Notes: generated by a model not told the origin, from the letters alone. Counted from the stretch's first letter, positions 23,635 to 39,903 are shown. The stretch: 44,847 bases of DNA from Acidimicrobiia bacterium (GCA_025937235.1 JAICRU010000016.1:1-44847); one strand, 5' to 3'. Translations and numbers: made by a program.

Positions 23635-24357
23635 TCAGCCGGCTAGTTCGGCAGAACGCCGGCCCCGGTCGAAGGTCGACAGGGCCGATCTGATCTCGAC
23701 CGCCGCCTCGGCCGCCACCGTGCTTGGTGAATCGTCGTCGACGTCGGTGAATCTCTCCCCTGGTACCCGCACCTGCAGCACCACGCCATCACCGGTGTCG
23801 GATGGGGTGGTCCGGGCGAGCCGCAACGGTGCAAAGACACGCTCCAGGAAAGATTCGCTCTCAGCCAGCCACGACCCGGCCGGGATGGGGACCCGTCGCT
23901 CCAACTCGTGCGGGATGAACGGGACTTCATTGCGGTCCAACGATGGCGGCACATCCGACCGATAGGGCCTGGCGACGATGGAGCTCGGCAACTCGATCTG
24001 AGCGGTCACCGCGTCGGGACCGGGCACGAACCGCACCCCAATCCCCTGGCTCCTGGCAAGGCGGGCCACAGAAGCCATGGCCACCGACAGTTCGATGTCT
24101 TGGAGCAACCGGTCGAGAATCTCGATGGCAATCTCGGGCCCGCTCCACGAGATGGTGATCAGATAGGTGTCCTGGTCCCATGAGGCGGCGATCCGGCAGG
24201 CACCGGCGCCGCCGATCTGACCCACCAGCTCTGCGAGGATCTGTCCCGAGCCGGGAACGGCTTGGAGGGAGAGCTCGGCGGGCTCCACGGCTGCGAGCTC
24301 CACCTTGCGCTCGTCGACATCCGCCAGGGCCAGGTCGATCAGATCATGGATATCCAT
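23635..24357 (-). CDS. degenerate HATPase-like protein sharing a tail with CvnA
   Basis: 240-residue protein. Residues about 20-135 align by eye with the ATPase domain of the conservon sensor at 27434: VELAAVEPAELSLQAV matches VELLALEPARLSGGAV, then ILAELV, YLITISWSG, and SVARLARSQGIGVRF against HVVAKLAHRHGLDVQL. The N-box Asn (ENA in the sensor, VGQ here) and the ATP-binding Asp (SISDRG in the sensor, TISWSG here) are missing, so it probably does not bind ATP. The rest is a second unassigned domain ending RSALSTFDRGRRSAE, nearly the tail RSALSDYSRGRAKAD of CvnA. Leaderless (TACCGT 7 nt before ATG), divergent from the pseudo-kinase. Role unknown, likely a partner of the conservon. Confidence 0.75.
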   Translation of the reverse strand: MDIHDLIDLALADVDERKVELAAVEPAELSLQAVPGSGQILAELVGQIGGAGACRIAASWDQDTYLITISWSGPEIAIEILDRLLQDIELSVAMASVARLARSQGIGVRFVPGPDAVTAQIELPSSIVARPYRSDVPPSLDRNEVPFIPHELERRVPIPAGSWLAESESFLERVFAPLRLARTTPSDTGDGVVLQVRVPGERFTDVDDDSPSTVAAEAAVEIRSALSTFDRGRRSAELAG

Positions 24358-24364
24358 GAGTGAA

Positions 24365-24370
24365 ACGGTA
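24365..24370 (-). promoter_or_regulatory. -10 box TACCGT, leaderless-type
   Basis: Minus-strand TACCGT ends 7 nt before the ATG at 24357. Confidence 0.5.
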
Positions 24371-24427
24371 CTTCCAGTGCCACCCCGCGACCAAGGACCG
24401 CTACCGGGCTCGGGGGCCTCGCGGCGA

Positions 24428-24433
24428 TACTGT
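24428..24433 (+). promoter_or_regulatory. -10 box TACTGT, leaderless-type
   Basis: TACTGT ends 6 nt before the ATG at 24440; with the minus box at 24365 this forms a divergent pair inside an 82-base spacer. Confidence 0.5.
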
Positions 24434-24439
24434 GTCTGC

Positions 24440-26074
24440 ATGTCGAGGCGTCGCAGACTCTTTCCATGGAAGAGAGCCGCCAGGGTAGGAGACCAGCCCG
24501 ACCCGAGGATCTTCGCCACCCGGCATCGTTTCCTGCTCATCCTCCTGGTGGCTCTCATCCCGGTGCTCGCCATCGTCGGCTTGGCCCGGGGCGTACCGGT
24601 CCTTGAGATTGGGGCGGGCTCGCTCGTATTGCTCCTGGCGGCAGTGGCCGGGATGGCAGCGGGGAGCCAACTTGTCGCGGCCGGTGAGGTCGTCCTCGGG
24701 CTGGGGTCGGCTGCCGCGATCCTCGTCTGGCATCTGGATGGATACCCCGAGTCGTTCTACGCCTTCTTCCTGGCCCTGGTCGCGGTCTCGTTGTATCAGG
24801 AGACTCGTGTCCTCCTCGTCGCGCTGATCTATGTTGCGAGCCTCCACGCCTTCTCTGTGTTTCAGCTTTACCGCGAGTCGGGCATCTTCCGTGCCGGTGT
24901 AGCCGACATGCCTTTTCCGGTCGCCGGCGTGGCACTCGAGGTTCTCCTGGTGCTCCTTCTCATCGCCGGTTGGCGCGTGACCGGCCGAGAACACGCGCGC
25001 CGTGTGGCCGCTGAAGACATGATCCGCATCGGCTTCGAGCGAGCCGCTGTCGGGATGGCGACACTCAGCCCGTCCGGGGAGTTCATATACGCCAACCGCG
25101 CACTCACCGAGACCCTGGGGCCGGTGAACGGCGCCAACGTGAGCAGCGTGATTCATTCCGACGATGTCGAGAGGCTCGGTCAGCTCTGGGAGGACATGGG
25201 GCGCGCTGAGACCCGTACTGCCGAGACCTGGTTGCGTCTCCGGTCCGCCAATGGGCGGGCCATCTGGGGCAAGACCTCGCTTACCTTTGTCCGCGCCTCG
25301 TCCACCCGCCCGGCCACGATCCTGCTCCAGCTCGAGGAGGACGGTGCCCGCCAACGAGAACAGGCTCTTCTCGAAGCCCGCCTCGCCGGACGCGACGAGT
25401 TCGTGGCCGCCATCGCCGCAGACATCAGGGAGCCGGTCGACAGGGTTCTGGATCTGACGACTCTGGCTACCGCCGATCCGCCTGACCTGGACCGCCTCTT
25501 GTACCAAATCGACGACGAGGCAAGGCGGGTCGCCTCGATCGTGGACGACCTTGGGGTCTCTGCCCGGGCCGGGACAGTGCCCTTTGTCGCCCGCTCGGTC
25601 GACGCCGCACTGATGTGTCGGGAGGTCATGGCCGAAATGCTCGGCGCCGGCGATATCACCATCGATGTCGGGGGCGAGAAGATATGGGCCGATCCCAGTC
25701 TCACCATCAGGATCCTCCGGAACCTGGTGGCGAACGCCGTCCGGTACGGCGGTCGCAACGTCCGCCTGGAGGTGACCGGGTCGGGCCCGGACACGGTCAT
25801 CTCGGTTATCGATGAGGGCCCTGGGATCGCCGTCGAGGAGCGGGAAAGAATGTTCGATGCCGACCTGCAGGGGGAGGCGCATCCAACCCGTCCGGCTGCC
25901 GTTGGCCTGAGCCTCACCGTCTCCCGGCGGCTTGCACGCCAGATGGACGGCGAAATCACCTATCGGCGCACCGGCGACGGGCGCAACGTCTTCGAGCTTC
26001 GTCTCCCCGCCGAGCCGGTGCACGCTGAGCTCTATCCGGGTGTCATGCTGGATCCGCTCGGGATCCCGGCTTAG
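24440..26074 (+). CDS. membrane PAS sensor pseudo-histidine kinase (no phospho-acceptor His)
   Basis: 544-residue protein with about six N-terminal membrane helices (30-190), a PAS domain (about 205-315; GMATLSPSGEFIYANRA), a HisKA-like helix pair (about 315-395) and a HATPase domain (about 410-525). The HATPase keeps the N box NLVANAVRYGG, VIDEGPGIA and GLSLTVSRRLARQMDG. In the HisKA position, FVAAIAADIREPV aligns with the usual FVA-x-x-SHELRTPL, and the acceptor His is Ala327 (GCA at 25418-25420). It may bind ATP but should not autophosphorylate on His. Leaderless ATG at 24440. Its TAG stop overlaps the TAA of the GTPase gene. Likely a signalling partner of the conservon, by position. Confidence 0.85.
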   Translation: MSRRRRLFPWKRAARVGDQPDPRIFATRHRFLLILLVALIPVLAIVGLARGVPVLEIGAGSLVLLLAAVAGMAAGSQLVAAGEVVLGLGSAAAILVWHLDGYPESFYAFFLALVAVSLYQETRVLLVALIYVASLHAFSVFQLYRESGIFRAGVADMPFPVAGVALEVLLVLLLIAGWRVTGREHARRVAAEDMIRIGFERAAVGMATLSPSGEFIYANRALTETLGPVNGANVSSVIHSDDVERLGQLWEDMGRAETRTAETWLRLRSANGRAIWGKTSLTFVRASSTRPATILLQLEEDGARQREQALLEARLAGRDEFVAAIAADIREPVDRVLDLTTLATADPPDLDRLLYQIDDEARRVASIVDDLGVSARAGTVPFVARSVDAALMCREVMAEMLGAGDITIDVGGEKIWADPSLTIRILRNLVANAVRYGGRNVRLEVTGSGPDTVISVIDEGPGIAVEERERMFDADLQGEAHPTRPAAVGLSLTVSRRLARQMDGEITYRRTGDGRNVFELRLPAEPVHAELYPGVMLDPLGIPA

Positions 26075-26658
26075 CTGGCGGCTGCTTCGCTCAACACCCG
26101 ATCGAGGGTGTGTTCGACCAAGGCCACAAGCACTTTCTGGACGTCAATTCGGACTCGGGCGTCGCACTGAACGATGGGGACCTCCGACCCGATTCGCAGC
26201 GCCTCACGGACCAGCTCCGGGTGATGGAACCGCCGGCCATGGAAGGTGTTGATCGCCACGACGAACGGAGTACCGCGCCTTTCGAAGAAGTCGACTGCGG
26301 CGAAACACGCTTCGATGCGTCTGGTGTCGACCAGCACGACCGCCCCGATCGCCCCCCTGGCCAGCTCGTCCCACATGAAATGGAACCGGTCCTGGCCCGG
26401 AGTCCCGAACAGATACAAGACGAGACGGTGTTTCAGACTGATCCGCCCGAAGTCCATTGCGACCGTGGTCTCGGTTTTGGTCCCATCGACCGCCAGCTCG
26501 TCGACATCGGAGCTGGCGTCGGTGATGATGGCCTCGCTGCGAAGCGGCTCGATTTCGGATATGGCGCCGACGAAGGTCGTCTTGCCGACGCCGAAGCCTC
26601 CGGCCACCACGATCTTGACCGGGGTCAACCCGGGACGGTCAAAGGGCTTTGATCCCAT
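26071..26658 (-). CDS. cvnD: conservon small GTPase (CvnD)
   Basis: 195-residue GTP-binding protein of the MglA/Ras-like type found in Streptomyces conservons. P-loop GGFGVGKTT (20-28), G3-like GTPGQDRFHFMWDEL, G4-like VVAINTFHG, in which the usual NKxD is altered (N-T-F), as in other members of this group. GTP-dependent switch acting with the Roadblock protein and the sensor ATPase. Start ATG 26658 overlaps the end of the DUF742 gene by 20 bases; the alternative upstream ATG would lie inside it. Its stop overlaps the pseudo-kinase stop (TTAG). Confidence 0.92.
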   Translation of the reverse strand: MGSKPFDRPGLTPVKIVVAGGFGVGKTTFVGAISEIEPLRSEAIITDASSDVDELAVDGTKTETTVAMDFGRISLKHRLVLYLFGTPGQDRFHFMWDELARGAIGAVVLVDTRRIEACFAAVDFFERRGTPFVVAINTFHGRRFHHPELVREALRIGSEVPIVQCDARVRIDVQKVLVALVEHTLDRVLSEAAAS

Positions 26659-27019
26659 CGAGCACCTTGTGGAGCAGTTCGGCGTAATCGGAATCTTCTG
26701 TGTCGGTGACCGCCTCCCTCGGCGGCTCAACGATGCTCACGGCTCCCTGATCGCGGAGATCGGTGGCCAGGACCCTCACCACACCCACCGGCACTTCGAG
26801 TCGCGCCGCCAACTCGACGATCGCGGTCTCCTTCCGGCTGTGAGTGATGATCTGTGCCGACTCCCATCGGAACCTGCCCCGCATCCTCATCCCGGCCGGG
26901 GTCACCGCTACCAGGGACTCGAGGGCGATGGGCGGGAGCCCGACACCGCTGCGGCCTCCCGTCATCGTGTACGGCCGGACGATGCGGCCTCCCGCACGCG
27001 TCTGGGATGTGTCGCTCAT
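26639..27019 (-). CDS. cvnC: DUF742 conservon protein (CvnC)
   Basis: 126-residue protein of the DUF742 family, third gene of the conservon. Marks are GGRIVRPYTMTGGRS near the N-terminus, and a C-terminal winged-helix-like part with HSRKETAIVELAARLEVPVG, VRVLATDLRDQG and a short acidic tail. In Streptomyces conservons the corresponding protein links the Roadblock protein and GTPase; its biochemical role is unclear. The ATG overlaps the Roadblock stop by four bases and its end overlaps the GTPase start, so translation is coupled throughout. Confidence 0.92.
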   Translation of the reverse strand: MSDTSQTRAGGRIVRPYTMTGGRSGVGLPPIALESLVAVTPAGMRMRGRFRWESAQIITHSRKETAIVELAARLEVPVGVVRVLATDLRDQGAVSIVEPPREAVTDTEDSDYAELLHKVLDGIKAL

Positions 27020-27441
27020 GCCGGCTCGGGCTCGACCAGCCTCGCCTTGAGCTCTTCGCGCACGGGCGGGGTGAGACTGTCACCGACCCTTTGGACGAAG
27101 ATCGACATCTCGAACGCAACCGCACCCAGGTCAATCTCCTTGCTGGTCAGACAGCACAGGAGCGACCCATGCCTGATCCCCGTCACGAACAGCCACCCCC
27201 GCTGCATATCGACTATCACGTTGGAGACAGCTCCCCCCCCGAATCGGCCGGCGGATCCGTAGGCAAGCCCGATCATCCCCGACGAGACTGCGGCCAAACG
27301 CTCTGCGGTCTCACGGTCGACCCCGTCCGATTTGGCCAACGCCAGCCCGTCCGGCGAAACGACCACAGCCTGCTGGATGGACGGGACCGTGGTGCAGAGC
27401 CGTTCCAGGAGCCAGTCCAGGCTTGCCGCCGCTTCAGACAT
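27016..27441 (-). CDS. cvnB: Roadblock/LC7 domain protein (CvnB)
   Basis: 141-residue Roadblock/LC7 protein, second gene of the conservon, expected to act as a GAP or scaffold for the GTPase, as MglB does for MglA. Pattern: WLLERLCTTVPSIQQAVVVS, DGLALAKSDGVDRETAERLA, GGAVSNVIVDMQRGWLFVT and a C-terminal helix. The Roadblock fold of five strands with two helices is clear from spacing. Overlaps the sensor gene by 8 bases. Confidence 0.93.
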   Translation of the reverse strand: MSEAAASLDWLLERLCTTVPSIQQAVVVSPDGLALAKSDGVDRETAERLAAVSSGMIGLAYGSAGRFGGGAVSNVIVDMQRGWLFVTGIRHGSLLCCLTSKEIDLGAVAFEMSIFVQRVGDSLTPPVREELKARLVEPEPA

Positions 27442-28810
27442 CGGGCACTCTGCTTTCGTCGGCCTTGGCCCGCCCCCGGCTGTAGTCGCTCAGCGCAGAC
27501 CTGAGACGTCCCCCGCCCTCCGCCGCCGCTCCCGGCGATGCATCCTCCTCACGGAGGGCCCGACCCGGGACCCGCACCGGCAGGTCCGCCATGGCCTCGA
27601 CGGGCTCCCGGACTTCGGCCGAGACGGGCTCGACCATCGCGGTGTCGGTCAGATCGATCACGTCGAGCTGGCTCGCCGATGGTTTGGATGCCTCCGCCCG
27701 TTCCAGCCGTTCTCGAGGGATGGTCACCTTGGCGGTGATCCCGGGAACATTGCGCATCAACTGCACGTCAAGCCCATGCCGATGGGCCAGCTTGGCCACC
27801 ACGTGGATTCCCATGGTGGGCTCGACGGACAGCCCGAGCGCGGGCGGTCGTTCCAGTATGCGGTTCAGCTCGGCTAGACGGGGGTCGGACATTCCCATGC
27901 CGCGATCCGAGATCGATAGCTCGTAGCCGTCGAAATCGAAGAGCCCGGTGACCCGGACCGGCTCATTGGGCGGGGAGAACTGAACCGCGTTCTCGAAAAG
28001 CTCCGCCAATAGATGGGCGACATCGGTGACGGCGCCTCCGGAAAGACGGGCCGGCTCCAGCGCGAGCAACTCCACCCGCTGATATTCATCGACCTCACTC
28101 AAAGCGGCACGGACCACGTCGGAGATGTCCGTCGACTTGGCCCAGACCCGGGGTGAGTCGGATCCCGCCAGCACGAGGAGGCTCTCGGCATTGCGTCGCA
28201 TGCGGGCCGCCAGGTGGTCCACCTGATAGAAGCCCCCGAGGGTCTCCGGGTCATCCTCGCGCGATTCGAGCTCGTCGAGGAGGGCAAGTTGTCGGTCGAC
28301 CAGGGAGCTGTTGCGGCGGGCCAGTGTGATGAGGATGCTCGATACCCCAATCCGGAGCGACACCATTTGCCTGGACGACACATCTATCAGTGTCCGATGC
28401 ATGTTCTCGAAGGAGCGGGCCAGGTCTCCGATCTCGTCAGTAGGCGTGGTGTCCAGACCTAGGGAGGGAATGGCGGGGATCGCTTCCGGGTCGCGCAGGG
28501 CGTCGAGCAACTCGACGAGGTCCTTGTGGGCCATCCTTCGGGCGGCCAAGGTGATCGCGCCGATTCGGTTGCCGAGGGCCTGCCCGATGCGATGGGCAAC
28601 GAAGAGGGATCCGATCACCACCGCGCCCACCGAGACCGCGACTATGACTGCCATCGCCCTCTGTCCTGACTCGGCCAGCGACCAAGTCAGGAACACACCG
28701 AGCAGCAAGGCCACCACCACCACCGGGGCCATGACCAGAGTCAGCCTGGTGGGGATGCTCCATTGTCGAGCCATCGGCGCCGGCCGGTCAGCCGCCTCCA
28801 TCGCACCCAT
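27434..28810 (-). CDS. cvnA: conservon sensor ATPase (CvnA), histidine-kinase-like
   Basis: 458-residue membrane sensor. Two membrane helices (about 24-45 and 53-73), HAMP-like linker with RRMAHKDLVELL, a dimerising helical region, and a HATPase domain (about 245-370) with N box ELFENAVQFSPP, SISDRGMGMSDP and GIHVVAKLAHRHG. No classical HisKA H-box is seen, as in other conservon sensors. The C-terminal 80 residues are disordered and end RSALSDYSRGRAKAD, a tail shared with the degenerate HATPase protein at 23635. Leaderless ATG at 28810 with TATCGT 7 nt ahead. Heads an operon A-B-C-D. Confidence 0.92.
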   Translation of the reverse strand: MGAMEAADRPAPMARQWSIPTRLTLVMAPVVVVALLLGVFLTWSLAESGQRAMAVIVAVSVGAVVIGSLFVAHRIGQALGNRIGAITLAARRMAHKDLVELLDALRDPEAIPAIPSLGLDTTPTDEIGDLARSFENMHRTLIDVSSRQMVSLRIGVSSILITLARRNSSLVDRQLALLDELESREDDPETLGGFYQVDHLAARMRRNAESLLVLAGSDSPRVWAKSTDISDVVRAALSEVDEYQRVELLALEPARLSGGAVTDVAHLLAELFENAVQFSPPNEPVRVTGLFDFDGYELSISDRGMGMSDPRLAELNRILERPPALGLSVEPTMGIHVVAKLAHRHGLDVQLMRNVPGITAKVTIPRERLERAEASKPSASQLDVIDLTDTAMVEPVSAEVREPVEAMADLPVRVPGRALREEDASPGAAAEGGGRLRSALSDYSRGRAKADESRVPDV

Positions 28811-28817
28811 CGCGAAA

Positions 28818-28823
28818 ACGATA
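28818..28823 (-). promoter_or_regulatory. -10 box TATCGT for the conservon operon
   Basis: Minus-strand TATCGT ends 7 nt before the ATG at 28810, a leaderless-type promoter for the A-B-C-D operon. Confidence 0.5.
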
Positions 28824-28925
28824 AACGGCGAGACCGTAGGTTCACGGGATTGAGTTTGCCGAAATGTCGATTACGACCGCCCCGCTTCGTTGTAAGGGTG
28901 TGTAGGTCGCAGAAAGGAGCACCTC

Positions 28926-29534
28926 GTGAAATTGACAGTCACCACCTTCGTAACGCTCGACGGTGTGATGCAGGGTCCGGGTGGGCATGATGAGGACCTG
29001 AGCAACGGCTTCGAGCTGGGCGGCTGGGTATCAGCGCATATCGACGAGGACTTCGGCCGAAGGGTCGATGACATCTTCAGTCGAGCCGACGCCATCCTCC
29101 TCGGCCGGACCACATACGAGATGATGTATGCGTACTGGTCGCAATTCCCTGATGAGGACAACGTCGTTGCCAGCGGTCTGAACAATCTCCCCAAGCACAT
29201 CGCCACCAGTCACCCCGACGGGCTCAGCTGGAACAACGCGTCCCCGATCGAGGGAGATCTGGTCGAGACGGTCCGGAAGCTGAAGGAACAGCCCGGGCGG
29301 GAGCTCCAGGTCCACGGCAGCCACGGCGTGATTCAGACCCTCCTGAAGGCTGGTCTCGTCGACGAGATCAACCTGTTCATATTCCCGGTGGTCCTCGGTG
29401 AGGGAAAGCGCCTATTCGGGCCAGGCACCGTGCCGGCGGGCATGAAGCTCGAGAACGGTGAGATCTCCAGCACTGGCGTCGTCATCGCCACCTACAGGCC
29501 GACCGGCGCACCCGTCCTCCAAGAGGCCGCATGA
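28926..29534 (+). CDS. dihydrofolate reductase/RibD C-terminal-like protein
   Basis: 202-residue NADPH-dependent reductase fold related to DHFR and the RibD reductase domain. Marks: MKLTVTTFVTLDGVMQGPGG, ILLGRTTYEMM, a central LQVHGSHGVIQTLLKAGLVDEINLF (shown in parts: HGSHGVIQ, LVDEINLF) and PVVLGEGKRLFGPG. Members of this family are often annotated as DHFR-family proteins of unknown substrate. AGAAAGGAG precedes the GTG start by about 8 bases. Convergent with the small membrane gene, stops 13 bases apart. Confidence 0.93.
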   Translation: MKLTVTTFVTLDGVMQGPGGHDEDLSNGFELGGWVSAHIDEDFGRRVDDIFSRADAILLGRTTYEMMYAYWSQFPDEDNVVASGLNNLPKHIATSHPDGLSWNNASPIEGDLVETVRKLKEQPGRELQVHGSHGVIQTLLKAGLVDEINLFIFPVVLGEGKRLFGPGTVPAGMKLENGEISSTGVVIATYRPTGAPVLQEAA

Positions 29535-30023: not shown

Positions 30024-32837
30024 GTGAGCTCCACGCCCAGCGGGACCGTCTCGTTCCTGTTCACCGACGTCGTCGGGTCGACCCGGCTCTGGGAGATCGA
30101 CCGGGACGGAATGGCGGCCAGCCTGGCCGAGCACGACCGGATCCTCGAAGATTCGATCAAGGAGCAGGAAGGATTCGTCTTCTCCACCGCCGGTGATTCC
30201 TTCGCCGCCGCCTTTCACACGCCGGGTGCTGCCCTGGCCGCCGCGATGAGGGCCCAACTCGGCCTGTTCAGCGAGACGTGGCCAGGGCCGCGGATCAGGG
30301 TGCGGATCGGGGTGCACACCGGGACGTCTTACGAACGAGCCGGCGACTACTTCGGCCCCGACGTCAATCGGGCGGCCCGGATCATGGCCGCGGCCAACGC
30401 CGGCCAGGTGCTGGTCTCCGGAGCGACCGCCCAGCTGGTGGGCGCCGCGATCGCCGCTCCGATGACCATGATCGACCGAGGAGTCCACTCCCTCCAGGAC
30501 CTCGAGCGCCCCGAGCACCTATTCGAGCTGCTCCACCCCGACCTTCCCCAGGTGTCCGATCCGCTGCGAACCGCGCTGGTCGAGCGGGTCCACCTGCCGG
30601 CGCGGCTCACCTCGTTCGTGGGCAGGCGGGCCGAGCTCGACGCGGTGAACGGCTTGGTCGGCTCGTCACGTCTGGTCACCTTGACCGGGGTGGGCGGCGC
30701 GGGCAAGACCCGTCTCGCCATGGAAGTGGCCTCCGATCTGGGAGATCTGTTCCCCGACGGGATATGGATGGCGGGCCTGGCCGACATCTCGGACCCGGCT
30801 CTGGTGGTCAACGAGATCGCCGAGGTCTGGAGCTTGCGGCCCGGCGACGGGATGGGTCTGATCCAGGTGATCAAGGCCTTCCTCGCCGGCAGGAAGCTGC
30901 TCGTGATCCTGGACAACTGCGAGCACGTCCTCGAAGCCGCCGCCGGGCTCGCCGGAGACCTGCTCGAAGCCAACCCTGGCCTGTCCATCCTCGCCACCTC
31001 ACGGGAAACGCTCGGTGTGCCCGGCGAGACGGTGTACCGGGTGCCGTCGATGGGCCTGCCCTCCGCGGGTTCAGACCTCGCTTCCTCGGAGTCGGTGCGC
31101 CTCTTCGTCGACCGGGCGGCGCTGGTCCTACCCGGCTTCGATCCCACACCGGACGAACTGGACTCGATCGCTCGGATCTGTCGTCGCCTCGACGGGATCC
31201 CGCTCGGCATCGAACTGGCTGCCGCCCGCGTCCGCACCCTCACCATCGTGGATCTGGCCACACACCTCGACCAGTCGTTCCGTGTCCTCACCGCCGCTTC
31301 CAAGACCACCGTCAGGAGACAGCGGACACTGGAGAACGCCATCGGGTGGTCATACGACCTCCTTTCGGACGACGAGGCCGCTCTGTTCCGACGACTCTCG
31401 GTCTTCGCCGGAGGGTTCGACCTCGACGCGGCGCAAGTCATGGCTGGGGAGTCGGAGGTGATCGATCTCCTCGACCAACTGGTCGACAAGTCTCTGGTTG
31501 GGGCATCCCCCCAAGGCCGAACCTCTCGCTTCCGTCTTCTCGAGCCCATCCGGCAGTACGGCCAGACGCGTCTGGTGGACCGAGGTGAGGCCGAAGAGGC
31601 GCTCACCGCTCATGCTCGATACTTCGCATCCTGGGTCGCCGCCCTCGCTCCGCGTCTCCGCGGGCCGGAACAGGCAGAGGCCAACCGAGAGCTACTCGTG
31701 GAAGCCGACAACACGAGAGCGGCGCTGGCCACTCTTCTCGAACGTGGGGAGGTGGACCGGTTCCTCCAGACGTGTTTCGACCTGACCTGGTTCTGGGCCC
31801 AGTCCAGCATGCATGTCGAGGGCAGGGACACGCTGGTGGCGGCATTGGGCGGGCACGGGGACCGGGCAGCAGCATCCTCAGCGGCAAAGGCGTGGTTCGA
31901 AGCAGCCCTGCTCGCCACATTCCTCACCGACCCGACGGCCACCGACTATGCAGACCGCGGTCTGGAACGAGCCCGCGAATCCACGGACGACGCACTGGTC
32001 GGCTGGCTCACGCTGGCTCGGGGCATGACCTATTCCAACCTGGTCGGTCTCGAGGACGCAGGCTCCTGGATGGAGCAAGGCCGCGTCTTGGTCGCCGAGA
32101 ACAGAGGGCGTCCGATGTGGGATCCGGCCTGGGACGAGGCGCTGGTCGAGTTCATGCTCGCCTTCGGTCGGGCCGGCGAGGCGGATGAGCGCAGGAAGCA
32201 TGTGGCCGTGGCGATCGAGAAGGCCCTCGGCCTGGGAGACGGATACCTCGGCGCATCCGGGATGATGACCGCCACCTCCCTCATCGGGACCGGACAGGAC
32301 GAATGGGTCCTGGCGAATCTGGCGAGGAGCATCGAGATCCTCGGAGACCTGGGTTCCCGTCACGGCTTGGGCCACGCCCTGTACTACCACTGGGGAGCCC
32401 GCCAGGACCTGGGCTTGGAGACATCGATAGATGACCTGGCCGACGCGTCACGAATCCTGGCCGAAGTTGGCGACCTTCCCTGCTCTACCCGGTCGGGGGC
32501 CCGATCGATCCGGAGCCTCCTCGACGCCGGCCGCATCGATGAGGCTGCGGATCAGCTGAGGACTGTCGTCGACCGTTTGCTCCTCTTTGACAGCGAGGTG
32601 CACGCCGGGCTCCCTGCCCTCGCCCTTCGTCTGGAGCTGGCGACTGAGGACATGCCAAGCGCCGCCCGATTCCTAGGCCACGTCGAGCAGAGCCCGGTCG
32701 GCATCTCGAAGGAATCGGCTGGCGACGCCCGGGCCAGAATCGAATCAGCGCTTCCCGAGGACGAGCAGAAGCGCCTCTTCGCCGATGGTGCTGCCGCCGG
32801 TTACCGACGTGTCCTGGAGTGGATTCGCGACATGTGA
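30024..32837 (+). CDS. class III cyclase/NB-ARC ATPase/TPR regulator (937 residues)
   Basis: Large soluble multidomain protein. Residues about 8-170 are a class III nucleotide cyclase: FLFTDVVGSTRLWE (Asp15), TAGDSFAAAF (second metal Asp, with Ser in place of the usual Gly), and DVNRAARIMAAANAGQVLVS with Asn and Arg kept. An NB-ARC/STAND ATPase follows: P-loop GVGGAGKTR (about 222-230), Walker B LLVILDNCEHV, and IPLGIELAAARVRTL. The rest is helical TPR-like repeats (about 540-930). No HTH output domain. It probably couples ligand binding in the TPRs to cAMP synthesis, in the manner of STAND signal proteins. Paralogue of the 1001-residue protein at 36898. GTG start. Confidence 0.9.
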   Translation: MSSTPSGTVSFLFTDVVGSTRLWEIDRDGMAASLAEHDRILEDSIKEQEGFVFSTAGDSFAAAFHTPGAALAAAMRAQLGLFSETWPGPRIRVRIGVHTGTSYERAGDYFGPDVNRAARIMAAANAGQVLVSGATAQLVGAAIAAPMTMIDRGVHSLQDLERPEHLFELLHPDLPQVSDPLRTALVERVHLPARLTSFVGRRAELDAVNGLVGSSRLVTLTGVGGAGKTRLAMEVASDLGDLFPDGIWMAGLADISDPALVVNEIAEVWSLRPGDGMGLIQVIKAFLAGRKLLVILDNCEHVLEAAAGLAGDLLEANPGLSILATSRETLGVPGETVYRVPSMGLPSAGSDLASSESVRLFVDRAALVLPGFDPTPDELDSIARICRRLDGIPLGIELAAARVRTLTIVDLATHLDQSFRVLTAASKTTVRRQRTLENAIGWSYDLLSDDEAALFRRLSVFAGGFDLDAAQVMAGESEVIDLLDQLVDKSLVGASPQGRTSRFRLLEPIRQYGQTRLVDRGEAEEALTAHARYFASWVAALAPRLRGPEQAEANRELLVEADNTRAALATLLERGEVDRFLQTCFDLTWFWAQSSMHVEGRDTLVAALGGHGDRAAASSAAKAWFEAALLATFLTDPTATDYADRGLERARESTDDALVGWLTLARGMTYSNLVGLEDAGSWMEQGRVLVAENRGRPMWDPAWDEALVEFMLAFGRAGEADERRKHVAVAIEKALGLGDGYLGASGMMTATSLIGTGQDEWVLANLARSIEILGDLGSRHGLGHALYYHWGARQDLGLETSIDDLADASRILAEVGDLPCSTRSGARSIRSLLDAGRIDEAADQLRTVVDRLLLFDSEVHAGLPALALRLELATEDMPSAARFLGHVEQSPVGISKESAGDARARIESALPEDEQKRLFADGAAAGYRRVLEWIRDM

Positions 32838-36897: not shown

Positions 36898-39800
36898 ATG
36901 CAGACATTCCTCTTCACAGACATCGAGGGGAGCACCCGCCTGTGGGAAGAGCATGGCGACGAGATGGCTGCGGCCTTGGCCCGACACGACGACATCCTGG
37001 CCACGGCCGTAGCGCAGGCCGGTGGCTCGGTGCTGAAGACGACCGGCGACGGGCTGATCGCCGTATTCGACACGGTGGCGGATGGTCTAACCGCGGCCAT
37101 CGACGGCCAGCACGCCCTCGACCGTGGGCCGTGGGGCGCAACCGGGCCCCTCCGGGTCCGAATGGGGATCCACCGCGGTCATACCGAAGCCCGACACGGC
37201 GACTTCTTCGGGCCCGCCATGAATCGTGCCGCCCGGATCATGGCAGCGGGCCACGGCGGCCAGGTGCTCATCTCCGAGGCCGCCGCCCTCGACGCTCGAC
37301 TCCCAGCCGACATCGCCCTCCGCGATCTCGGGATGCACCGGCTCAAGGACCTGACCGAGCCGGAGCATCTATATCAGGTCGTCCACGAACTGCTCGGCTC
37401 CGAATTCCCCGCCCTGAACACACTGGACGGCCGGCCGAACAACCTCCCCCAACAGGCGACGGAGTTCTTGGGGCGTGAGGACGAGTTGGCCGCCATCCGC
37501 CTGATGCTGGACTCTCCCGCCACCAAGCTCCTCACCATCACCGGGCCCGGTGGGGCGGGCAAGACACGTCTCGGGCTCCAGGTCGCCGCCGACGAGCTCG
37601 ACCGGTTCCCCGACGGCGTGTTCTTCGTCGATCTCTCCGCCGAACGCGACCCGAACGCCGTGTTCGATGCCGTCGCCGGGGCGCTGGCCATCCCGTTGTC
37701 GGGCACCACCGACGCGCTTCATGTCCTGGAGACGAGACTGCGCGACGCCCGGATGCTCCTGGTCCTCGACAACTTCGAGCAGGTCACCGCCGCCGCGGTG
37801 GGTCTGTCCCAATTGTTGCAGCGCGGCCCAGGGCTCAAACTGCTGGTCACCAGCAGGGAGACCCTCAGGATCAGAGCGGAACAGGTGTTCCCGGTGCCTC
37901 CCCTGTCGCTACCTCACCCCCAGGGCACGCCGGCGGAGATCGCCGAGTCGGAGTCGGTACGTCTGTTCACCAACCGGGCCCGGGCGGTGCGCCCCGACTT
38001 CGCCGTGACCGCTGAGAATGCGACAACGATCGCCGAGATCTGTCTTCGGCTCGACGGACTCCCTCTCGCCATCGAACTGGCCGCAGCCCGGCTCAACGTC
38101 TTCACCCCGTTGGACCTCCTGGAACGGCTTCGGGAGAGGCTGGACGTCCTCGGCGGCGGGGGAAGGGACCTGCCCGACCGGCAGCGCACCCTCTGGGGTG
38201 CGATCGGGTGGAGCTACGAGCTTCTCGACTCGACCGAGCGTGACGTGTTCGAACTGCTCTCGGTGTTCGCAAGCACCGACCTCCGCTCCCTGGAAGCAGT
38301 GGCCGCCGACGCCAGCGGGTCCGTCAGCGCTGTCGACGCCCTCGGCTCGCTGGTCGACAAGAGCCTGGTGCGCACCCTGGACACCGGGCCGACGCAACGC
38401 TTCTCGATGCTGCTGATGATCAAGGAGTTCGCCGCCTCGAGATTGGCCGAGTCGCCGGATCGAGAGGAGAGGGTGCGCAGGGCTCACGCCACCTACTACT
38501 GCGGACTGGTCGATCGCATCGGCGATCGGCTTCACAGCGCCGAGAGGGCCGAGGCTTTGAGAGAGCTGGGGGAAGAACTGGGCAACCTCAGGACCGCTTG
38601 GGACTTCTGGATCGAGCGGGAAGATGCGACACAGATGCTGAGAATGATCGAGGGAATGTGGGCGCTCCACGAGTCGAAGGGCTGGTATCGAGGAGCCATC
38701 GAGCTGGCGGACGATGCCGTCGCGGTCCTGGACCGCGCCGCCCCCACGCCGGAGCTCGCGGCCGAGAGACTCGCGGTTCAGATGAGCCTGGCCCGGGCGA
38801 CGATGGCGCTGCGTGGCTACGGGGTCGAGGCAGAAGAGGCCTACAAGAAGGCGCTCGAGCTCTCGGAGGCGACCGGAGCCCGACAATTCTCCGTGCTCCG
38901 GGCCATGGCCACCTACTACATGGGCACGGGACGCTTCGACATCGGGGCCGAACACGGGCGACAGCTGCTCGAGCTTGGCGAGGAAGCCGAGGACGAGTCG
39001 ATGCTCGTCGAGGGACACTATGTCTACGGGGTGGGCAGAGCCTTCACCGGGGACCTCGAAGAGGGTCTTCATCATCTGAAACGGGCCATCGAGCTTCACG
39101 ATCCCAGTCGGCATGACCACGGCCGTTTTCGTTTGGGACCGAACACCGGGGTGGTGGCCAGAACGGCGGTGGGCATGCTCCTGTGGCAATGCGGGGTCCC
39201 GCAGCAGGCAGTCGAGCGTCTACAGGAAGCGCTGGACGTGGCCGTAGAGATAGACCACCCGTACAGCATCGCATATGCGCTGCATCACAATTCGCTCCTT
39301 GCCATCTACCGCGCTCGGTTCGAGGAAGCGGTGCTGCGAGCCCGCGAGCTGGCCGAGCTCTCCGCAGATAACGACTTCCCGGTTTGGGCGACCCTGGCCA
39401 CCGTCCTCGACGGCGTGGCCACCTGCTACCTGGGCGACCCCATCACCGGCCTGACCATGACCGAGAAAGGGATCGAGCTCTATCACGGACTGACCGCCCC
39501 ACCCGTCTTCTGGCCCCAGCTGCTAACCCTGAGGGCGATGGCTCACGGCGTGGCCGGCCACCCCGAACGCGGCCTGGAGCTGATCGACGAAGCGTTTGCC
39601 ATCATCGCTGGCGACGTGGTGAACGGCGCCGAACTGCAGATCGTCAAGGGCGATCTCCTCAGGTCTCACCCTGACCCGGATGGCGAGGCCGCGGAGACGT
39701 CGTATCTGGCCGCGGCAGCCGGGGCGATGCAGGGCTCGCTGAACCTGATTCGACTTCAGGCGCTCAATCGACTGGTCGGCCTGCGCCGGGAGCTGGGGAA

Positions 39801-39903
39801 GAAACCGGATGGCTCGGCGGAGCTGGCCAAGCTCTATGCCGGCTTCACCGAGGGGTTCGACGAGGGAGAGCTGGTGACAGCCCGGGAACTGCTCGCCCTG
39901 TGA
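36898..39903 (+). CDS. class III cyclase/NB-ARC ATPase/TPR regulator (1001 residues)
   Basis: Same architecture as the 937-residue protein at 30024. Cyclase (about 1-160): FLFTDIEGSTRLWEE with Asp8, TTGDGLIAVFD, and AMNRAARIMAAGHGGQVLIS. NB-ARC ATPase (about 190-480): GPGGAGKTRLG (about 215-225), LLVLDNFEQV, and GLPLAIELAAARLNVF. TPR-like repeats (about 540-990) include EEAYKKALELSEATGARQF. No DNA-binding domain. Here the cyclase keeps the standard GDG motif, unlike the paralogue. The next gene starts 83 bases after the stop. Confidence 0.9.
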   Translation: MQTFLFTDIEGSTRLWEEHGDEMAAALARHDDILATAVAQAGGSVLKTTGDGLIAVFDTVADGLTAAIDGQHALDRGPWGATGPLRVRMGIHRGHTEARHGDFFGPAMNRAARIMAAGHGGQVLISEAAALDARLPADIALRDLGMHRLKDLTEPEHLYQVVHELLGSEFPALNTLDGRPNNLPQQATEFLGREDELAAIRLMLDSPATKLLTITGPGGAGKTRLGLQVAADELDRFPDGVFFVDLSAERDPNAVFDAVAGALAIPLSGTTDALHVLETRLRDARMLLVLDNFEQVTAAAVGLSQLLQRGPGLKLLVTSRETLRIRAEQVFPVPPLSLPHPQGTPAEIAESESVRLFTNRARAVRPDFAVTAENATTIAEICLRLDGLPLAIELAAARLNVFTPLDLLERLRERLDVLGGGGRDLPDRQRTLWGAIGWSYELLDSTERDVFELLSVFASTDLRSLEAVAADASGSVSAVDALGSLVDKSLVRTLDTGPTQRFSMLLMIKEFAASRLAESPDREERVRRAHATYYCGLVDRIGDRLHSAERAEALRELGEELGNLRTAWDFWIEREDATQMLRMIEGMWALHESKGWYRGAIELADDAVAVLDRAAPTPELAAERLAVQMSLARATMALRGYGVEAEEAYKKALELSEATGARQFSVLRAMATYYMGTGRFDIGAEHGRQLLELGEEAEDESMLVEGHYVYGVGRAFTGDLEEGLHHLKRAIELHDPSRHDHGRFRLGPNTGVVARTAVGMLLWQCGVPQQAVERLQEALDVAVEIDHPYSIAYALHHNSLLAIYRARFEEAVLRARELAELSADNDFPVWATLATVLDGVATCYLGDPITGLTMTEKGIELYHGLTAPPVFWPQLLTLRAMAHGVAGHPERGLELIDEAFAIIAGDVVNGAELQIVKGDLLRSHPDPDGEAAETSYLAAAAGAMQGSLNLIRLQALNRLVGLRRELGKKPDGSAELAKLYAGFTEGFDEGELVTARELLAL

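Follow-up and report, generated by a model that had tools for sequence, protein, structure and literature searches.

Conservons, or actinobacterial G protein systems (AGPS), are widespread in Actinomycetota, including Mycobacterium tuberculosis and Streptomyces. A stretch of 44,847 nucleotides from an Acidimicrobiia bacterium (GCA_025937235.1 JAICRU010000016.1:1-44847), referred to here as the window, carries a conservon with two kinase-like genes beside it. One encodes a membrane PAS kinase without its phospho-acceptor histidine (pK) and the other a HATPase-like protein of 240 residues without ATP-binding residues (dHAT). A first-pass annotation suggested that all six genes form one signalling module that works through protein contact and the GTPase instead of phosphotransfer. 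The locus thus raises the question of whether the two neighbours belong to the conservon, and what they might do there.

Linkage of the six genes within one genus

The island at positions 23635-28810 consists of a complete conservon, cvnA-D, together with pK and dHAT (Table 1). The conservon genes stand in the order that defines such loci, namely histidine kinase-like, Roadblock, DUF742, and small GTPase, and lie head to tail with each overlapping the next. The stop of pK (26074) overlaps the stop of CvnD (26071), and the true start of CvnD is probably the ATG at 26658. Pfam matches and gene coordinates confirmed the overlapping conservon described by the first-pass annotation, and both the overlapping stops and the 82-base divergent spacer were found as it had reported them. 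The source genome is a MAG of 3.08 Mb that is 96.7% complete, in which the window makes up one contig (C167). It has one DUF742 gene and therefore one conservon, and Acidimicrobiia genomes usually hold a single conservon (PMC13343842, PMC13015309). A recently foreign origin of the island was ruled out because its G+C content resembles that of its surroundings. Two further genes near the conservon (30024-32837 and 36898-39903) encode large regulators, each with a class III cyclase-like domain at the N-terminus and an NB-ARC/AAA region; the second of these has a TPR match as well.

Table 1. Positions of the island genes and of neighbouring or comparable features (window coordinates unless a locus is given).
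Feature	Position	Strand	Description
dHAT	23635..24357	-	240 aa; Bergerat fold residues 1-130 and LPxR-type tail residues 147-240
Divergent spacer pK/dHAT	24358..24439		82 bases
pK	24440..26074	+	544 aa; about six TM helices, PAS-like domain, DHp without His, HATPase_c
CvnD, small Ras/MglA-type GTPase	26071..26730	-	Pfam ATP_bind_1, 9.9e-27
CvnC	26639..27019	-	Pfam DUF742, 8.9e-24
CvnB, Roadblock/LC7	27016..27441	-	Pfam Robl_LC7, 9.1e-17
CvnA	27434..28810	-	Pfam HATPase_c, 3.4e-7; two TM helices, HAMP-like region, DHp, HATPase, tail
RibD_C-domain reductase gene	28926..29534	+	adjoins cvnA; divergent from cvnA in three species
DUF4388 gene beside cvnA	L084:5700-6452		
DUF4388 gene beside cvnA	L094:12655-13377		
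DUF4388 gene beside cvnA	L108:12365-13117		
DUF4388 gene beside cvnA	L093:12536-13252		
DUF4388 gene beside cvnA	L083:5272-6081		
DUF4388 gene beside cvnA	L088:12831-13619		
DUF4388 gene beside cvnA	L090:13076-13807		

The order cvnA-B-C-D, pK, dHAT is identical in all three genomes of the genus that were compared (the window's own, G001, and G002), which are all MAGs. Across these genomes, the stops of pK and cvnD overlap or lie 1-11 bases apart, and the spacer between pK and dHAT measures 82-93 bases and contains blocks that even G002 retains. The blocks kept in the three species are AAACGGTA and ACCAAGGAC. On the minus strand, these blocks form TTGGT(C/T)-17/18-TACCGT-7-ATG ahead of dHAT, while GATACT-8-ATG precedes pK. 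The former arrangement is a putative leaderless-type promoter of dHAT, and a sigma-70 scan did not list this candidate. The DNA of G002 beyond the island and the RibD_C gene does not align to the flanks of the window (identity ~0.5). Since these flanks are unrelated and the island is kept, the six genes have stayed together through rearrangement. The RibD_C gene adjoins cvnA in G002 too, although the remaining flanking genes differ there; it is a conserved neighbour, for which no signalling role is claimed.

Between the window and G001, dS is 0.81-1.05 for cvnA-D and pK; four further genes in the region, including dHAT (0.45), have values of 0.44-0.49. Based on these values, cvnA-D and pK are likely an allele-exchange block that was swapped as a unit, with dHAT outside the block. 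A comparison of window positions 24400-29000 with G001:C7 (L053) also revealed a fall in nucleotide identity from ~0.86 to ~0.76 and a doubled dS over cvnA-D and pK; neither change extends to dHAT or the flanks. The pN/pS ratios of pK and dHAT are 0.33-0.55 with upper bounds below 1, indicating purifying selection. Given these ratios and the same gene order in G001 and G002, the arrangement in the window is not a chance observation.

CvnA without a sensor and the distribution of the pair

The two TM helices of the window CvnA are 11 residues apart, and the protein has no extracytoplasmic sensor. By hydropathy, this gap is 10-12 residues in the three species of the genus, and the extracytoplasmic part of CvnA comprises 239-281 aa in six other conservons of the family, all of which are without pK and dHAT. 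CvnA is otherwise not degenerate, as the N box, D-x-G-x-G, G2, and the DHp residue His199 are retained. His199, which lies in a DHLATRMRR stretch, is the sole histidine that almost every CvnA of the class retains; the LVDRQL position, a histidine in several Streptomyces-type CvnAs, is variable across the CvnAs of the class. CvnA8 of Streptomyces autophosphorylates (PMC13343842). Because of this activity and the catalytic residues kept in the window CvnA, signalling “instead of phosphotransfer” is unsupported for the core of the module, although the idea is plausible for pK and dHAT. Judging from these residues, CvnA itself may still carry out phosphotransfer.

The C-terminus of CvnA forms a tail, LPVRVPG...LRSALSDYSRG, with LPIRVPG or LPVRIPG at the corresponding site in relatives. 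These are instances of the LPxR motif, which occurs in a C-terminal extension and is specific to conservon kinases (PMC4316618). Other CvnAs have tails such as LPTRVPGTSF...IKAALSAFQTGRDSA or RSPEEVRxMLSRYRSGL, and the same tail type is present across the class.

Neighbourhoods of up to 10 kb on each side of conservon loci, less at contig ends, were compared in a sample of the class. Three of 70 loci have pK or dHAT nearby, all three from this genus. Eight other loci of the class with a sensorless CvnA have neither gene, and metabolic genes or a DUF4388 gene are the neighbours of these CvnAs. Outside the genus, no orthologue of pK was found among 35 relatives, where the best matches were ordinary kinases with an intact histidine whose partial alignments to pK showed ~34-43% identity. 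Likewise, no orthologue of dHAT was found in 34 genomes of the family, a sample of the order, a 396-genome sample of the phylum, or a scan of 84,980 species; the weaker matches were CvnA itself. In these searches, the pair is confined to one genus and is a single evolutionary event. The first-pass annotation had proposed that linkage conserved in distant relatives would support a module, and no such linkage was found. It had named two findings that would count against a module, namely relatives whose conservons lack the neighbours and neighbours that occur mostly elsewhere. The former holds in part, as six relatives in the family lack the pair, and the latter does not hold, as no orthologues were found away from the conservon. 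That absence, the order shared by three genomes, and the unrelated flanks of G002 speak in favour of one signalling module.

Some variations were observed at other conservons. In at least seven other conservons of the Acidimicrobiia, a gene for a DUF4388-family protein lies divergently and directly next to cvnA (Table 1), and CvnA is sensorless in four of them. The protein is possibly a further type of conservon accessory. At L131:9721-10692, CvnC and CvnD matches fall within one open frame and CvnB was not recognised; the two genes are possibly fused here and the Roadblock gene lost. A second cvnA-like frame directly follows cvnD at L124:2073-3473, and this locus is possibly a tandem conservon truncated where the contig stops.

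pK may be a stand-alone pseudo-kinase sensor of another pathway, in which case only dHAT, or neither gene, would act in the conservon and the linkage would be due to descent. This agrees with the restriction to one genus and with the position of pK, which is convergent to cvnA-D and not co-transcribed with them; moreover, the RibD_C gene is equally linked and has no obvious role. However, the linkage survives in G002 amid a different neighbourhood, the absence of the CvnA sensor coincides with the pair, and pK and dHAT share a divergent control region with conserved blocks. We consider independence of the neighbours rather unlikely on balance.

The pseudo-kinase and the dead half-copy of CvnA

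pK combines about six hydrophobic segments with PAS-like and DHp-like regions and a CA domain. Pfam identified HATPase_c (1e-17), and the matches to HisKA and PAS were weak. The structure model of pK had a mean pLDDT of 46 and was left out of the analysis. The orthologues in the two other genomes of the genus are 65% and 54% identical to pK. The H box, SHE[LI]RTP, has become AADIREP, AADIKEP, and AEDLRVP in the three species, which bears out the earlier description of a PAS kinase without a phospho-acceptor. Among approximately 30 kinases of the family and order that are related to pK, all those covering the box have S-H-E-(L/I/V)-R-T-P with the histidine present; the loss is therefore specific and shared by the three pK proteins. 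In the ATP site, the N-box Asn and the G1 Asp are kept, GLGL is replaced by GLSL in all three species, and two of them have Ala in place of the second G1 glycine. The CA part is the slowest-changing region of the protein (dN 0.22-0.28).

As far as can be read from sequence, this pattern is that of a kinase retained for contact or nucleotide binding, like DivL, and not of a dying gene. DivL of Caulobacter is a pseudo-histidine kinase that acts by contact, and both proteins are PAS-bearing histidine kinase folds that lack the phospho-acceptor His and keep the CA domain (PMC4211667). In DivL, however, the His is replaced by Tyr and the protein senses DivK~P upstream of CckA, whereas pK has Ala or Glu and sits with a GTPase system. 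The likeness is one of type, and descent is not claimed.

dHAT is paralogous to the C-terminal half of CvnA and catalytically dead. When the home genome was searched with dHAT, CvnA was retrieved at 2.1e-8, and phmmer with CvnA retrieved dHAT at 9e-11; the match spans the region from just after the DHp to the C-terminus of CvnA. dHAT has no TM helix and is without the HAMP and DHp regions, and as a half-copy only, it is not a CvnA. The N box Asn, the G1 (D-x-G-x-G) box, and the G2 box are lost in all three species, in agreement with the reported lack of ATP-binding residues. No significant Pfam match was obtained for dHAT. A helix-hairpin-helix assignment (HHH_5, E 0.0028, below the cut-off) was set aside in favour of the CvnA homology and the Bergerat fold. 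The AlphaFold model shows this fold with confidence over residues 1-130 (pLDDT mostly 76-93), and Foldseek against the PDB matched it to CA domains of histidine kinases (best E 1.6e-6); the matches include ChpT, DivL, and RetS. A tree built from CA domains places the three dHATs in a single clade (95/91) with long branches, which groups with the CvnAs of their own family (97/87).

The two parts of dHAT have evolved differently. The body (residues 1-130) is 36% identical between the window and G002, and 32-36% identical when G002 is compared with the other two species. The last 33 residues (208-240) are 85% identical between the window and G002 and 100% identical between the window and G001. 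This tail, VR-x-PGE-x-F ... IRSALSTFDRGRR, is of the CvnA type and is predicted to be partly disordered. The body of dHAT is therefore drifting while the conserved tail is retained. ChpT and Spo0B (degenerate HATPase) and RetS (a regulatory histidine kinase) use a dead or regulatory HATPase-type domain for protein contact, as dHAT may do. Unlike these proteins, dHAT is without the DHp helix pair and carries the LPxR-type tail of CvnA.

Phosphorylation in trans is another way in which the pair could act. As a hemi-kinase, pK would bind ATP through its CA domain and phosphorylate His199 of CvnA, with dHAT as a dead CA domain in the other half-site. The N-box Asn, the G1 Asp, and the slow change of the CA part of pK fit such a role, as do the conserved DHp His and intact ATP site of CvnA. 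On the other hand, the Ala in G1 and the GLSL in place of GLGL argue against it, and the HisKA-type DHp of pK is very different from that of CvnA, making heterodimers unlikely on general grounds. We find this explanation improbable. Decay of pK and dHAT into remnants heading for loss, suggested by the missing catalytic residues and the divergent dHAT body, is largely refuted and has almost no probability left, as the frames are open in three species, the pN/pS bounds rule out pseudogenes, and the dHAT tail is highly conserved between species.

A proposed mechanism and its relation to known systems

The best explanation for the locus is an extended conservon in which pK serves as a sensor in trans and dHAT as a carrier of the CvnA tail; we put its probability at about 0.5. 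CvnA would have lost its own sensor and would receive input in trans from pK, which would signal by contact with CvnA or dHAT and not by phosphorylating itself. dHAT would have arisen through duplication of the C-terminal half of CvnA and would be a soluble, non-catalytic carrier of the output tail. Most likely, it would bind the same partner as the CvnA tail, which may be CvnB, CvnC, CvnD, or CvnA itself. By competing with or substituting for CvnA, dHAT could set the GTP/GDP state of CvnD without phosphorylation. The output of the module would be the GTP state of CvnD, by analogy with the mfp system, where the CvnB-type MfpD is a GAP and the CvnC-type MfpC a likely GEF (as summarised in PMC13343842). 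We infer these contacts, the direction of signalling, the sensor role of pK, and co-expression of the genes; the sequences themselves show the gene content, the linkage, the residue losses, the shared origin of dHAT and CvnA, the constraint on the tail, and the absence of the CvnA sensor.

The extended conservon is supported by the six-gene order in three of three genomes, the retention of the island amid unrelated flanks in G002, the high dS common to pK and cvnA-D, the grouping of dHAT with CvnAs of the family, the constraint on the dHAT tail, the loss of the pK histidine beside a slowly changing CA part, purifying selection on both genes, and the loss of the sensor together with the presence of the pair, which matches the accessory rule and the effect of CvnF8 on CvnA8 (PMC13343842). 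Against it stand the location of pK on the opposite strand and outside the cvn operon, the window/G001 exchange block, which includes pK and cvnA-D but not dHAT, and the eight sensorless CvnA loci of the class without the pair. With one genus and three MAGs, it may be one coincidence that the sensor was lost and the pair gained. A more specific version is possible, if somewhat doubtful: the input and output arms of a GTPase switch have been passed to two dead kinases, and the free CvnA tail acts directly on the Roadblock, DUF742, and GTPase proteins.

Accessory genes have been described for other conservons. A survey of 485 genomes revealed that the accessory proteins CvnE and CvnF go with CvnAs that have no sensor domain, and CvnF8 binds CvnA8 and stimulates its ATPase activity and autophosphorylation (PMC13343842). 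The published accessory types are CvnE (P450), CvnF (GAF) (PMC13343842), and MfpA (pentapeptide effector; PMC13015309, PMC4316618). pK and dHAT match none of them, so that with respect to these types the first-pass annotation was right to regard the pair as absent from known conservons. According to Pfam, neither protein is a GAF or P450 protein, so they are not CvnE or CvnF. From its gene content, the pair beside a sensorless CvnA fits the published accessory rule (PMC13343842) with a new accessory type that arose in one event.

Cvn8 of Streptomyces coelicolor (PMC13343842) resembles the island in the order of its four core genes, in the accessory gene that adjoins them on the cvnD side, and in its sensorless CvnA. 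In contrast to conservons with CvnE or CvnF, the island has no GAF or P450 protein; its accessories are a PAS pseudo-kinase of the membrane, encoded on the opposite strand, and a dead C-terminal half of CvnA. The host belongs to the Acidimicrobiia and has one conservon in its genome. The mfp conservon of mycobacteria (MfpA-E; PMC13015309, PMC4316618) also carries an additional gene, restricted to its lineage, on the side of the GTPase gene. It differs in that the extra gene product, MfpA, is a pentapeptide-repeat effector that acts on DNA gyrase, and it has no kinase-like extras.

What is new at this locus is that dHAT is a CvnA paralogue with an isolated tail and that the pair accompanies a sensorless CvnA in all three genomes of the genus. 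The pair of a pseudo-kinase and a dead kinase joins a short list of accessory inputs to sensorless CvnAs. With a dead ATPase body and a kept CvnA tail, dHAT makes it possible to test directly whether the tail is sufficient to act on the GTPase cycle, which bears on how the CvnA signal reaches the Roadblock, DUF742, and GTPase proteins. If the two arms have indeed passed to two dead kinases, the LPxR tail, and not phosphotransfer, would be the point of contact between CvnA and the GTPase cycle in conservons at large.
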